In this document: one piece after another, positions 49,849 to 53,112 of the stretch
How positions within the stretch are numbered: the stretch's first letter is position 1
How the letters are laid out: each line of letters starts with the position of its first letter
DNA from: DASRDR01 sp963812945 [NCBI: uncultured Candidatus Rokubacteria bacterium]
GTDB taxonomy: Bacteria > Methylomirabilota > Methylomirabilia > Rokubacteriales
Direction: 5' to 3'
Assembly (NCBI GenBank): GCA_963812945.1
Contig: CAWEXD010000008.1
Coordinates: 1,364,001 to 1,428,000, forward strand
DNA: 64,000 nucleotides
Made by a program: the position numbers and the translations under genes
Notes under the pieces: generated by a model
What the model was told of the DNA's origin: nothing
Databases searched by the model: none
What the model saw: the letters and a program-made list of their open reading frames with translations, nothing else

Positions 49849-50301
49849 ATGAGACCTTGGCGCGAGCGCTCCGCCGCCCGGTCCGCCCGGCGCGCCCGAC
49901 CCGCCGCGGGACCGCGCGGTGACGCGGATACAGGCTCCCGCACGCGCGCGCTCCGCCAGCGCGTGTACGCGCTGGTGCGGCGCGTCCCGGTGGGGCGCGT
50001 GGTGACCTACGGACAGGTCGCGGCGCTGGCGGGGGCGCCCCGTGCCGCCCGGGCGGTGGGACAGGCCATGCGGATCTGTCCGGCCGGCGTGCCGTGGCAC
50101 CGCGTCGTGAACGGACGGGGGACGATCAGCCGCCGGGGCGACGGCAGCGGAGCGCTCAGCCAGCGCCTCCTCCTGGAAGGGGAGGGGATCCGCTTCGCGC
50201 GAGGCCGGATCGACCTCGGACGTTTCCGCTGGCCCGCGGGGGGGCGATCCAGGGGACGATCCGGGCCCGCCCGCCGGTTCCGTCCGGAGCTCCTCGCGTG
50301 A
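49849..50301 (+). CDS. alkyltransferase-like protein (ATL), MGMT fold
   Basis: A 150-residue protein with the DNA-binding domain of O6-alkylguanine-DNA alkyltransferase: VGRVVTYGQVAALAGAPRAARAVGQAM. The acceptor site, PCHRV in true alkyltransferases, reads PWHRV here (Trp83 replaces the Cys). Such ATL proteins bind and flip O6-alkylguanine and hand the lesion to nucleotide excision repair instead of removing it. The first ~30 residues are Arg/Ala-rich and unconserved, so the real start may be later. It lies three bases after the ABC gene and overlaps the YbaK gene by four bases. Confidence 0.88.
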   Translation: MRPWRERSAARSARRARPAAGPRGDADTGSRTRALRQRVYALVRRVPVGRVVTYGQVAALAGAPRAARAVGQAMRICPAGVPWHRVVNGRGTISRRGDGSGALSQRLLLEGEGIRFARGRIDLGRFRWPAGGRSRGRSGPARRFRPELLA

Positions 50302-50798
50302 CGCGCGAGCCCGCTCCGGTCCGGGTCCGGACGGCGCTCCAGGCCCTCGGGGTGGACAGCGACGTGATCGAGCTGGCGGACAGCGCGCGCACGGCCGCCC
50401 AGGCGGCAGCCGCGTGCGGCGTCGGCGTCGGGCAGATCGTGAAGTCGCTCGTGTTCCTGGCCGGGGACGAGGACGAGCCCATCCTGGTGCTCGTCTCCGG
50501 GGCGAACCAGGCCGACGAGCGCCGGCTCGCGGCGCTCAGCGGCCAGAGCGTGCGCCGGGCCGACGCCGACGCCGTGCGCGCCCACACGGGCTACGCGATC
50601 GGCGGCGTCCCGCCCGTCGGCCACCCGCGGCCGCTCCGCGTGTTCATCGACGCGGATCTCCTCGGCCACGACCGCCTGATCGCCGCCGCGGGCACGCCGA
50701 ACGCCGTGTTCCCGATCACCCCGGCGGAGCTCTGCCGCGTGACCGGCGGCGACGTCGTCGATCTCAAGCGCCACTCCGACGAGGCTAGCCGGACATGA
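50298..50798 (+). CDS. YbaK/EbsC-family aminoacyl-tRNA editing protein
   Basis: A 166-residue YbaK-type hydrolase fold. Seen: TAAQAAAACGVGVGQIVKSLVF (the Lys marks the active site), VSGANQADERRLAALSG, TGYAIGGVPPVGH and IDADLLGHDRLIAAAGTPNAVFPITPAEL. Proteins of this group deacylate mischarged tRNAs such as Cys-tRNAPro or Ala-tRNAPro. GTG start overlaps the ATL stop (GTGA). Whether it edits Cys or Ala cannot be read from the sequence. Confidence 0.87.
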   Translation: MTREPAPVRVRTALQALGVDSDVIELADSARTAAQAAAACGVGVGQIVKSLVFLAGDEDEPILVLVSGANQADERRLAALSGQSVRRADADAVRAHTGYAIGGVPPVGHPRPLRVFIDADLLGHDRLIAAAGTPNAVFPITPAELCRVTGGDVVDLKRHSDEASRT

Positions 50799-50826: not shown

Positions 50827-51705
50827 GTGCGGGTGATGCCGCTGGCCGCGGACTCGCTCGGCACGCGGTCGATGGCGACCTACGTCGAGGCCGGGCGCCT
50901 GCGCCTGCTCCTCGATCCGGGCGTCACGCTGGCCCCGCGGCGCTACGGCCTCGGGCCCGCGCCCGAGGAAGAGGAGGCGCTCGCGCGCGCGCGCCTCCGG
51001 ATCGAGGGCTGGGCCGTCCGGGCGACGCACGTGACCGTGAGCCACTTCCACGCCGATCACTACCGGACGGAGACGGCGCTCTACGCGGGCCGGCAAGTCT
51101 GGGCGAAGGACCCGCGGCGGATGATCGACCCGCACCAGGCGGCCCAGGGGCGCGACTTCTGGCGGACGGTCGGTCCCCACTGCCGCCTCGAGCCGGCCGA
51201 GAGCCGCACGGTCGAGCTCGACGGGGCGACGATCCGCTTCTCGCCCGCGCTGCCGCACGGCCTCGAGGGCTCGGGGTTCGGGTACGTCGTGGCGGTGACG
51301 GTGGACGACGGCGGCGAGCGGTTCGTCCACGCGTCCGACCTCCAGGGACCCGCGTCGCCGGTCGCCACGGCGTATCTCCTGCGAGAGCGCCCGGACCTCG
51401 TCTACCTCTCGGGCCCGCCGACCTACCTCCAGGGGCAGGTCGGCCGCGACGTTGTGCAGCGCGGGATCGACAATCTCGTGCGGCTGGTCGGGGAGACCGG
51501 GTGCCGCGTCATCGTGGACCACCATGCCGTGCGAGAGCCGCGATTCCGCGACCGGCTCGCGGCGGCCTTCGCCACCGGCCGGGTGGTGACCGCGGCCGAG
51601 TACCTCGGGCGGGGCGACGAGTGCCTCGAGGCGCGGCGGGCGGCGCTCTGGGCGCGGCGGCGCCGGGGCGAGCCGGGCGCGCGCGGGACCGTCACGGGAT
51701 CGTGA
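50827..51705 (+). CDS. UPF0282-like metallo-beta-lactamase-fold hydrolase
   Basis: A 292-residue metallo-hydrolase with the HxHxDH motif in VSHFHADHYRTE, an N-terminal LGTRSMATYVE/LLLDPGV segment, LPHGLEGSGFGYVVAV, HASDLQGPAS and a C-terminal IVDHHAVREPRFRDRL. The pattern matches the UPF0282 family, best known from archaea, whose substrates are unknown. GTG 50827 is the first start giving the complete fold; it is 28 bases after the ybaK-like stop. Presence of an archaeal-type family suggests old transfer but base composition is like its neighbours. Confidence 0.75.
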   Translation: MRVMPLAADSLGTRSMATYVEAGRLRLLLDPGVTLAPRRYGLGPAPEEEEALARARLRIEGWAVRATHVTVSHFHADHYRTETALYAGRQVWAKDPRRMIDPHQAAQGRDFWRTVGPHCRLEPAESRTVELDGATIRFSPALPHGLEGSGFGYVVAVTVDDGGERFVHASDLQGPASPVATAYLLRERPDLVYLSGPPTYLQGQVGRDVVQRGIDNLVRLVGETGCRVIVDHHAVREPRFRDRLAAAFATGRVVTAAEYLGRGDECLEARRAALWARRRRGEPGARGTVTGS

Positions 51706-51742
51706 TCCGCGCCCATCATCGGGCACGGAAGGAGGGCCGACC

Positions 51743-52204
51743 ATGTCGGAGATGCCGAGAGTTGGCGAGCCGGCGCCGGAGATCCGGCTGCAGGGAATCG
51801 GCGGCAAGGAATGGAGCCTCGCCGCGCAGCGGGGCCACCACGTCGTCCTGCTCTTCTACGTCCTCGACTGGACGCCCGGCTGAACCCGGGAGATGCCGGC
51901 CTTCGAAGCCCGGATCCGGGACTTCGAGGCCGCGGGTGCCCAGGTCGTGGGCATCTCGTGCGACTCCATATACAGCCACGACGCGTGGGCGAAGTCGCTC
52001 GGCGGCATCTCCTACCCGCTGCTCTCCGACGTGCAGCGGGACGTCGTCGAGCGCTACGGCATCCACTGGCCGGAGCTCAACGCGTGCCACCGCGCCACGT
52101 TCGTGATCGACCGCCAGGGCGTGGTCCGGTTCGCCCAGCGCTACGGCCGGGGGGAGCTGCCGGACCCCGCGAAGATCCTCGCGGAGGTGAAGACGCTCGG
52201 CTGA
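51743..52204 (+). CDS. selenocysteine-containing peroxiredoxin (UGA at the peroxidatic position)
   Basis: A peroxiredoxin of the AhpE/BCP type, 153 residues if UGA codon 47 (51881-51883) is read as selenocysteine. It starts at ATG 51743 after a perfect AAGGAGG. Before the UGA: VGEPAPEIRL, then VVLLFYVLDWTPG; the next residue in the family is the peroxidatic Cys, here UGA, followed by TREMPAFEAR. After it come VGISCDS, HDAWAKSLGG, YPLLSDV and RATFVIDRQG with the conserved Arg117. Cys73 or Cys115 may resolve, or thioredoxin may act directly. Pro of the PxxxTxxC motif is Val40. The hairpin at 51885-51920 could be the SECIS. A nonsense mutation of Cys is the alternative, but the intact downstream frame argues against decay. 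Confidence 0.85.
51885..51920 (+). promoter_or_regulatory. candidate bacterial SECIS element
   Basis: One base after the UGA a 36-base stem-loop can form: CCCGG (51885-51889) with CCGGG (51916-51920), AT (51893-51894) with AT (51914-51915), CC (51896-51897) with GG (51912-51913), GGC (51898-51900) with GCC (51908-51910), apical loop CTTCGAA. Size and distance suit a bacterial SECIS, the SelB recognition hairpin that lies within the coding region just past UGA. Paired by eye only. Confidence 0.5.
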
Positions 52205-52236
52205 GCGCCCAGAGCCCCGGGAGCGACAGCGCCCGG

Positions 52237-53112
52237 GTGGGCGCCGCGCCCGACAACCTGGGGGCGCACATGTCCATCGCCGGTGGCCTGCCCAACGCGG
52301 TCCAGCGCGGGGTGGCCGCCGGCTGCGGCGTCATCCAGCTCTTCCTGAAAAACCAGCTTCGCTGGGCGGGCCCGCGGCTCGCCGACGACGAGGCCGTCCT
52401 CTTCCGTCAGGCGCTCGCGACGTCGGGGCTCCGCGCCGCGTGCGCCCACGCGAACTACCTGATCAACCTGGCCACGCCCGATCCGGACGAGGGGACGCGC
52501 GCCGTGGCCGCCCTGGTCGACGAGCTCGAGCGCGCGGAACGGCTCGGCCTGCCCTTCGTCGTGCTCCACCCGGGGTCCCACAAGGGCGCCGGCGCCCGGG
52601 CGGGGCTCGCCCGGCTCGGCCGCGCGCTCGACGAGGTCGCCCGGCGCACCGCGGGCTGGCGGGTCCGGGTGGCCCTCGAGAACAGCGCCGGCGCCGGGCA
52701 CACGCTCTGCGCCCGGGCCGAGGAGCTGGGCCAGACGCTCGACCGCGTGCGCGAGCCCGAGCGCCTGGCGCTCTGCCTCGACACCTGCCATCTCTTCGCG
52801 GCCGGGCACGACATCCGGACGCCCCGGGGGTTCGCGGCGGTGCTCGACGAGTTCGACCGCGTCGTGGGGCTCGAGCGGGTGGTGGCCTTTCACCTGAACG
52901 ACTCGCGGGCCGGGCTCGGCGCGCGCCTCGATCGCCACGAGAACATCGGGGCCGGCCAGATCGGCCTCCGGGCGTTCCGCTTCCTGCTGACCCACCCGCG
53001 GCTGGGCGCGCTGCCCATGGTGCTGGAGACGCCGAAGCGGGACGATGGCGACGCGCGAAACCTCGCCACCCTGCGCGCGCTTCGCCGCGCGGCATGCCGG
53101 CGTCGCCGATGA
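52237..53112 (+). CDS. nfo: endonuclease IV (AP endonuclease)
   Basis: A 291-residue zinc TIM-barrel AP endonuclease that cuts 5' of abasic sites. Seen: LGAHMSIAGGL, QLFLKNQLRW, HANYLINLATP, VLHPGSHKGAG, VALENSAGAGHTLC, LCLDTCHLFAAGHD, FHLNDSRAGLGARLDRHENIGAGQIG and VLETPK. The metal-binding His/Glu/Asp set is present. GTG 52237 is chosen because the conserved LGAH comes before the first ATG. It sits between the peroxiredoxin and a methyltransferase and with the ATL gene suggests a DNA-damage/oxidative-stress cluster. Confidence 0.92.
   Translation: MGAAPDNLGAHMSIAGGLPNAVQRGVAAGCGVIQLFLKNQLRWAGPRLADDEAVLFRQALATSGLRAACAHANYLINLATPDPDEGTRAVAALVDELERAERLGLPFVVLHPGSHKGAGARAGLARLGRALDEVARRTAGWRVRVALENSAGAGHTLCARAEELGQTLDRVREPERLALCLDTCHLFAAGHDIRTPRGFAAVLDEFDRVVGLERVVAFHLNDSRAGLGARLDRHENIGAGQIGLRAFRFLLTHPRLGALPMVLETPKRDDGDARNLATLRALRRAACRRRR

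Follow-up and report, generated by a model that had tools for sequence, protein, structure and literature searches.

A gene on the forward strand at 51743–52204 of the window (the whole stretch of DNA analysed, 64,000 nucleotides) almost certainly encodes a selenocysteine (Sec) peroxiredoxin of a Rokubacterium, in which the UGA at 51881 would be decoded by SelB and tRNA-Sec through a structure in the downstream mRNA, and Sec47 would be the peroxidatic residue. Sequence comparisons show that the TGA at the catalytic codon is conserved, that sel genes are present in the genomes of relatives, and that the RNA structure downstream of the codon is linked to Sec. The protein represents a new clade within an established selenoprotein family, and the two-hairpin region is the unusual, new part.

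The gene belongs to the AhpC/TSA family, and its start codon at 51743 lies 7 nt downstream of a Shine-Dalgarno sequence, AAGGAGG (51729–51735, forward strand), read from the sequence. The frame contains a single internal in-frame TGA (51881–51883, codon 47), which is preceded by 46 codons and followed by 106 residues and the final TGA at 52202–52204, giving a product of 153 residues with Sec at 47. DWTPG stands on the 5′ side of codon 47 and RATFVIDRQG on the 3′ side, and the match to Pfam AhpC-TSA (PF00578; residues 7–130, E 2.1e-38, 131.5 bits against a cut-off of 26) spans the TGA. The sequence-only reading had claimed an ATG at 51743 behind a perfect AAGGAGG, a TGA exactly in the place of the peroxidatic Cys with 106 conserved residues after it, and a truncated product of 103 residues from standard gene calling. 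The first two are borne out by the features just given, and ordinary-code translation of this frame does yield an ORF of 103 residues at 51893–52204. The UGA occupies the peroxidatic position of a TxxU motif and is kept as TGA in homologues; Val40 takes the place of the Pro in the PxxxT(S)xxC motif, so that the TxxU part of PxxxTxxU, which gives the family its name, is present and its Pro is replaced, as in a variant member. The UxxC motif is absent from the window protein, which reads UTRE, and the conserved C-terminal resolving Cys of typical 2-Cys peroxiredoxins was not found, position 47 being the only invariant Cys/Sec column in an alignment of nine sequences (A1). A scan of the window for in-frame TGAs flanked on each side by coding-like composition returned five, including that of the peroxiredoxin; judged by eye, each of the other four marks the end of a gene, after which the next one begins. 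No tRNA was found in the 64-kb window by ARAGORN and no Rfam family matched anywhere in it at the gathering score, while a search of 51700–52250 with E values up to 10 gave five Rfam matches, all far under their own gathering scores.

Judged from its nearest relatives, the peroxiredoxin most likely belongs to a Rokubacteria (Methylomirabilota) lineage. The best full-length relatives in the species-genome collection are seven Rokubacteria MAGs with 64–75% identity, and the next is one Acidobacteria MAG (L009) with 41%. Codon 47 is TGA in all seven close Rokubacteria homologues and also in L009, and therefore the TGA is not a chance occurrence. When 95 Methylomirabilota genomes were searched and a score of at least 177 bits was taken as orthologue-grade, 57 matches were obtained in 57 genomes. 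Exactly one TGA is present in 56 of them, and each of these, when read, is the peroxidatic codon; the remaining match (L042, in genome G084) has TGC there and no TGA.

A codon alignment contains group A (10 sequences, including the window) and group B (42 sequences, 41 with TGA), and the peroxidatic codon is TGA in 51/52. The two groups occupy the same locus in different genomes. Group A reads FYVLDWTPGUT[KR][EQ]M and group B mostly FYPLDWTPGUS[TK]C; at the third residue beyond the catalytic position, Cys is present in 42/42 of group B (41 with Sec and one with Cys at that position) and in 0/10 of group A, which reads U-T-R/K-E/Q. Val replaces the motif Pro in 10/10 of group A, in 2/42 of group B and also in L009. 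In one FastTree tree of 149 tips, rooted at the midpoint only, support is 0.895 for group A and 0.98 for A and B together, and at least 11 changes between Sec and Cys are implied. These data answer several points raised by the sequence-only reading: its view of the gene as a selenoprotein is supported by the conserved TGA and by the sel genes of the relative genomes tested, codon 47 is retained as TGA in close homologues, the 57 orthologue-grade matches including a single TGC, and the distinct subgroup that it had suspected from the Val-for-Pro replacement exists as the clade of ten sequences, all with Val.

The exceptional L042 (G084:C1:2918-3376) has a CxxC motif where the others have Sec, its genome keeps selA and a TGA-containing selD, and its second hairpin (hp2, below) is intact; its position inside group B suggests that Sec was replaced by Cys. 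Additional AhpC/TSA genes that contain exactly one in-frame TGA occur in several Methylomirabilota genomes, a radiation of Sec redoxins with the motifs FTPTU, WGGIU, DWSPGU and FLPAU. Two different Sec peroxiredoxin genes, of the FTPTU and WGGIU types, stand in tandem at L097:1037-1504 and 1548-1976. The Rokubacteria locus L013 has a peroxiredoxin-like gene (TATUT) and a second, weak match reading WATWUPDC, which looks like a Sec motif of the TlpA/ResA type.

The machinery for Sec incorporation accompanies the gene in its relatives. selA, selB and tRNA-Sec score above their cut-offs in 8/8 genomes that carry homologues, and they lie on one contig in all seven Rokubacteria genomes. selD is over its cut-off in 10/11 genomes, each time with an in-frame TGA of its own, and the context GU[AS][CS]K is found in the ten read. 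The folds 3′ of the TGA in these selD genes differ from one another and appear canonical by eye only in L103 and L104. Across the phylum, selA is above the cut-off in 83/95 genomes and in 49/56 of those with a TGA orthologue; no selA reaches it in the other seven (G012, G061, G066, G069, G082, G083 and G090), whose completeness values are not given. In Acidobacteria the comparison of selA with Sec or Cys is uninformative, as selA is over the cut-off in 29/30 genomes irrespective of whether the homologue has Sec or Cys.

Two hairpins follow the UGA on the same strand. The first, hp1 (51895–51933), starts 11 nt after the UGA and has an apical loop, GAUC, 29 nt after it; the second, hp2 (51936–51954), consists of TGCCCA/GGTCG/TGGGCA with an outer G-U pair, and its loop (51943–51947) lies 59 nt after the UGA. 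Third positions in groups A and B are 91–93% G/C, and in group B A/T predominates in just three codons, the UGA itself, +18 and +23 (group A additionally has GAA at +8 in 7/10). Codon +18 has T in 52/52 sequences of both groups and codon +23 is GGT in 48/52, and these two codons sit in opposite arms of hp2; in the window codon +23 is GGC, opposite GCC. In hp1, the wobble pair of codons +5 and +16 is CG in 42, GC in 5, TA in 1, TG in 1 and GG in 3 of the 52 sequences. For the two-hairpin structure in 30 sequences of groups A and B (29 distinct), 98.0% of cells are paired and the covariation is 0.092, against 0.000–0.021 when the structure is slid along the alignment, a comparison favoured by the derivation of the structure from the same sequences.

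In Sec genes from two phyla, both hairpins are more stable than their synonymous redraws. With codons drawn, within each phylum, according to how the corresponding gene segments use them, the z values of hp1/hp2 are −5.6/−5.7 in group A (9 rows, since L002 was not placed), −12.3/−13.4 in group B (40) and −13.8/−10.2 in 25 Acidobacteria Sec genes, values that overstate independence because the sequences are related. The extra stability is absent from 40 Cys homologues (0.6/−0.6; L042 left out), most of which represent other peroxiredoxin subfamilies. A motif rule placed all but 11 of 159 genes (2 Sec and 9 Cys unplaced; 3 in a Cys control set of 20 did not fit the motif), and all seven hp2 pairs form in 78/107 placed Sec genes compared with 3/41 Cys genes. 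Among genes that code QV or QI at the hp2 site, hp2 is complete in 74/92 with Sec and in 1/12 with Cys, the one being L042.

For a comparison across two phyla, 56 rows (55 distinct) were chosen by hand from the 107 placed Sec genes (alignment A4); this choice reduced group B and excluded the 12 Acidobacteria genes of the FTGG type as well as several paralogues from Methylomirabilota. The RNAalifold consensus of A4 is hp2 alone, with hp1 missing. On this alignment hp2 has 97.9% of cells paired and a covariation of 0.220 (0.005–0.077 when slid); its covarying pairs are AU 30, GC 17, GU 6 and other 2 at one position and UA 45, CG 6 and other 4 at the next. One hp2 C-G pair has become G-C in L139, where the protein has E and F and not Q and L/V. 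For hp1, 77.5% of cells are paired and the covariation of 0.254 (0.058–0.166 when slid) is reached by 0/500 shuffles, while the number of its pairs with two-sided changes, 7, is matched in 210/500. The 12 FTGG-type Acidobacteria Sec genes (L152, L155, L157, L160, L164-L171) have no hp2 as a set (z 2.0) and fold nearer the UGA (+3..+13, z −6.9; +4..+17, z −4.3). Two signal layouts thus seem to coexist in one protein family, as far as these predicted folds indicate.

When 46 nt at the UGA were folded as a single sequence, z was only −1.09. With within-gene synonymous shuffles, 0/100 reach the observed alifold value in either group, a result not leaned on because this null breaks conservation. 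A sliding shuffle test on 20 of the 42 group B sequences peaks at +3..+27 (z −10.8), other positions going down to −4.6; in group A the values are −2.2 at +3..+27 and −5.4 at +27..+51, so that the test is not specific for A alone. A covariance model (R1) was searched in 12 genomes, and among the matches listed all 17 below E 1e-13 fall on one-TGA peroxiredoxin genes; the next-best listed matches include some further peroxiredoxins, Cys ones among them. Because R1 matches fall on peroxiredoxin genes, hp2 appears so far to be known only in peroxiredoxins, among the listed matches of these genomes.

These observations bear on other explanations of the TGA. A change of one base from TGC or TGT to TGA would look identical in a single sequence, and one orthologue does have TGC; nevertheless, a nonsense mutation or sequencing error in an ordinary Cys peroxiredoxin is exceedingly improbable, because 56 genomes of one phylum and many genomes of another share the TGA, the frame has no other stop and its downstream protein is conserved, and the downstream RNA structure of the Sec genes is not seen in 40 Cys homologues. 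Reassignment or general suppression of UGA, for example as Trp, deserves next to no credence in place of specific Sec decoding: UGA terminates the peroxiredoxin gene itself, the preceding MBL-fold hydrolase gene and the four further frames that were taken as ends of genes, the internal TGA stands at the position of the catalytic chalcogen, where the single variant is Cys, and sel genes are found in the relatives. The 103-residue ORF from ATG 51893 is what the ordinary code gives, but that it is the real protein, with the upstream part untranslated, is scarcely conceivable, as such a product would have no active site, the segment preceding the TGA is conserved among the nine aligned sequences and the Shine-Dalgarno sequence precedes ATG 51743.

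Either of the two hairpins may serve as the SECIS element. As given in the accessible part of its description, the published bSECIS model has a loop of 3–9 nt with G in the first two positions, 16–37 nt from the UGA, and an upper stem of 4–16 bp. The hp1 of the window conforms to it, with GAUC at 29 nt. This conformity adds nothing, because the model does not discriminate at the hp1 region: it fits 36/52 genes and also 658/1040 synonymous shuffles. hp2 fails the spacing, its loop lying at 59 nt instead of 16–37 nt. The sequence of this loop, GGU(C/G/U), resembles GGUC, the loop found in E. coli. A 2026 review states, in the portion available, that some elements do not fit the bSECIS model (PMC13188914), and the available text on the E. 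coli minihelix places it 11 nt from the UGA and singles out U17, G23 and U24 (PMC8659212).

The evidence somewhat favours hp1, with its canonical distance, as the sole SECIS; hp2 would then have an accessory role, in pausing, enhanced recoding or mRNA stability, or reflect a separate constraint. hp1 starts 11 nt past the UGA with its window loop within 16–37 nt, and it has the covarying wobble pair of codons +5/+16 and covaries in two phyla. Against this, hp2 is more regular (97.9% of cells paired vs 77.5%), has the GGUN loop and is the sole part of the two-phylum consensus fold. These features suit a more tentative proposal, that hp2 and not hp1 may be the SECIS bound by SelB; hp1 would then fold away the intervening RNA and present hp2 at an effectively normal distance, and the pair would constitute a displaced two-hairpin class of bacterial SECIS common to Methylomirabilota and Acidobacteriota. 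We lean slightly towards hp1 being the SECIS and hp2 an element that is either required or has an enhancing effect.

The gene neighbourhood is also conserved. The next gene upstream on the same strand encodes an MBL-fold hydrolase (50827–51705; PRK04286-like, though below the cut-offs of the PRK04286-like models), preceded by a protein with a YbaK-type aminoacyl-tRNA editing domain (50094–50798, forward strand), and the next gene downstream is endonuclease IV (nfo; 52264–53112, forward strand). The MBL hydrolase lies 5′ of the Sec peroxiredoxin on the same strand in 21/21 Methylomirabilota loci tested, which suggests that the two may form a functional pair; the gap between them is at most about 125 nt in 20 loci and about 0.9 kb in L001. 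A search of a single Acidobacteria locus did not find the hydrolase. Endonuclease IV is within about 1.5 kb downstream in 6/9 group A loci, the other three pieces ending less than 1.6 kb past the peroxiredoxin, YbaK is upstream in 5/9 of these loci, several of which are short, and MGMT occurs in 6/9.

The predicted structure of the protein has a peroxiredoxin fold (pLDDT 97.1, pTM 0.92). In a structure search the top PDB match is human Prx2, with archaeal Bcp4 and AhpC2 also among the matches; in a profile search archaeal Bcp-like proteins (PDB 2ywn) and AhpE of M. tuberculosis (4x0x) rank first. Thr and Arg are the usual partners of the peroxidatic residue in peroxiredoxins. Thr44 is invariant in nine aligned rows, neither Arg117 nor the catalytic position varies across 40 rows, and the other cysteines of the window protein, C73 and C115, are not conserved in the nine-row alignment. 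From these features a reaction scheme may be proposed. SelB and tRNA-Sec would decode UGA 51881, directed by the structured mRNA just downstream; the Sec47 selenolate, in an active site probably shaped by Thr44 and Arg117, would attack H2O2 or an organic hydroperoxide to give a selenenic acid. Because no other Cys is conserved in the group A clade, its Sec would be reduced by an external thiol or redoxin in a 1-Cys-like manner, and group B may use its own UxxC for reduction.

Sec peroxiredoxins with TxxU and peroxiredoxin-like proteins with UxxC are established families in the available portions of the literature (PMC1088965, PMC1794560, PMC13188914), and a Methylomirabilota MAG with 63 predicted selenoprotein genes is cited in the accessible sections of the 2026 review (PMC13188914). 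Searches of the literature on selenoproteins of Rokubacteria and Methylomirabilota gave no paper concerning this gene, and searches on spaced or second stem-loops none on a two-hairpin signal, as judged from titles and the beginnings of abstracts in a collection covering few subscription journals. What the present gene adds is a Sec peroxiredoxin that is widespread, that ordinary gene calling is likely to truncate and that has an MBL hydrolase as its neighbour in the tested loci of Methylomirabilota. The RNA matters more than the protein, because bacterial SECIS prediction rests on one hairpin 16–37 nt from the UGA; in one test, a tool built on the bSECIS model failed to find at least 40 (13.0%) of the known selenoprotein genes, according to the part of the report available (PMC12013277). 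A second hairpin that is linked to Sec, covaries and lies 59 nt from the UGA makes a concrete candidate for another class of signal.

Among known systems, the solved structures closest to the window protein by profile are those of AhpE of Mycobacterium tuberculosis (Rv2238c; PDB 4x0x; E 1.7e-39) and archaeal Bcp-like peroxiredoxins (2ywn; E 1.2e-45). These are likewise short, at about 155 residues, but their catalytic residue is Cys and their motif has the Pro. A Sec-containing peroxiredoxin of Eubacterium acidaminophilum was reportedly described by Sohling in 2001. The window protein shares with the Sec peroxiredoxins of the TxxU type, as the accessible text presents them (PMC13188914, PMC1088965), the PF00578 domain, Sec at the peroxidatic position and Thr three residues before it; it differs in having Val for the Pro of PxxxTxxU and in scoring 57.5 bits on the NCBIfam PrxU model NF040737, below the curated cut-off of 270. 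The two downstream hairpins of its gene may be a further difference. Group B resembles the peroxiredoxin-like UxxC thiol:disulfide oxidoreductases, in the part of the source available (PMC1088965), by its Cys three residues after the catalytic position (42/42), whereas the window protein and its clade are without that Cys (0/10). With the E. coli-type bSECIS, as portrayed in the available sections (PMC8659212, PMC13188914), the window gene has in common a hairpin 3′ of the UGA, hp1 being 11 nt from it; in contrast, two hairpins are present here, and the GGUN loop lies at 59 nt and not at 16–37 nt.
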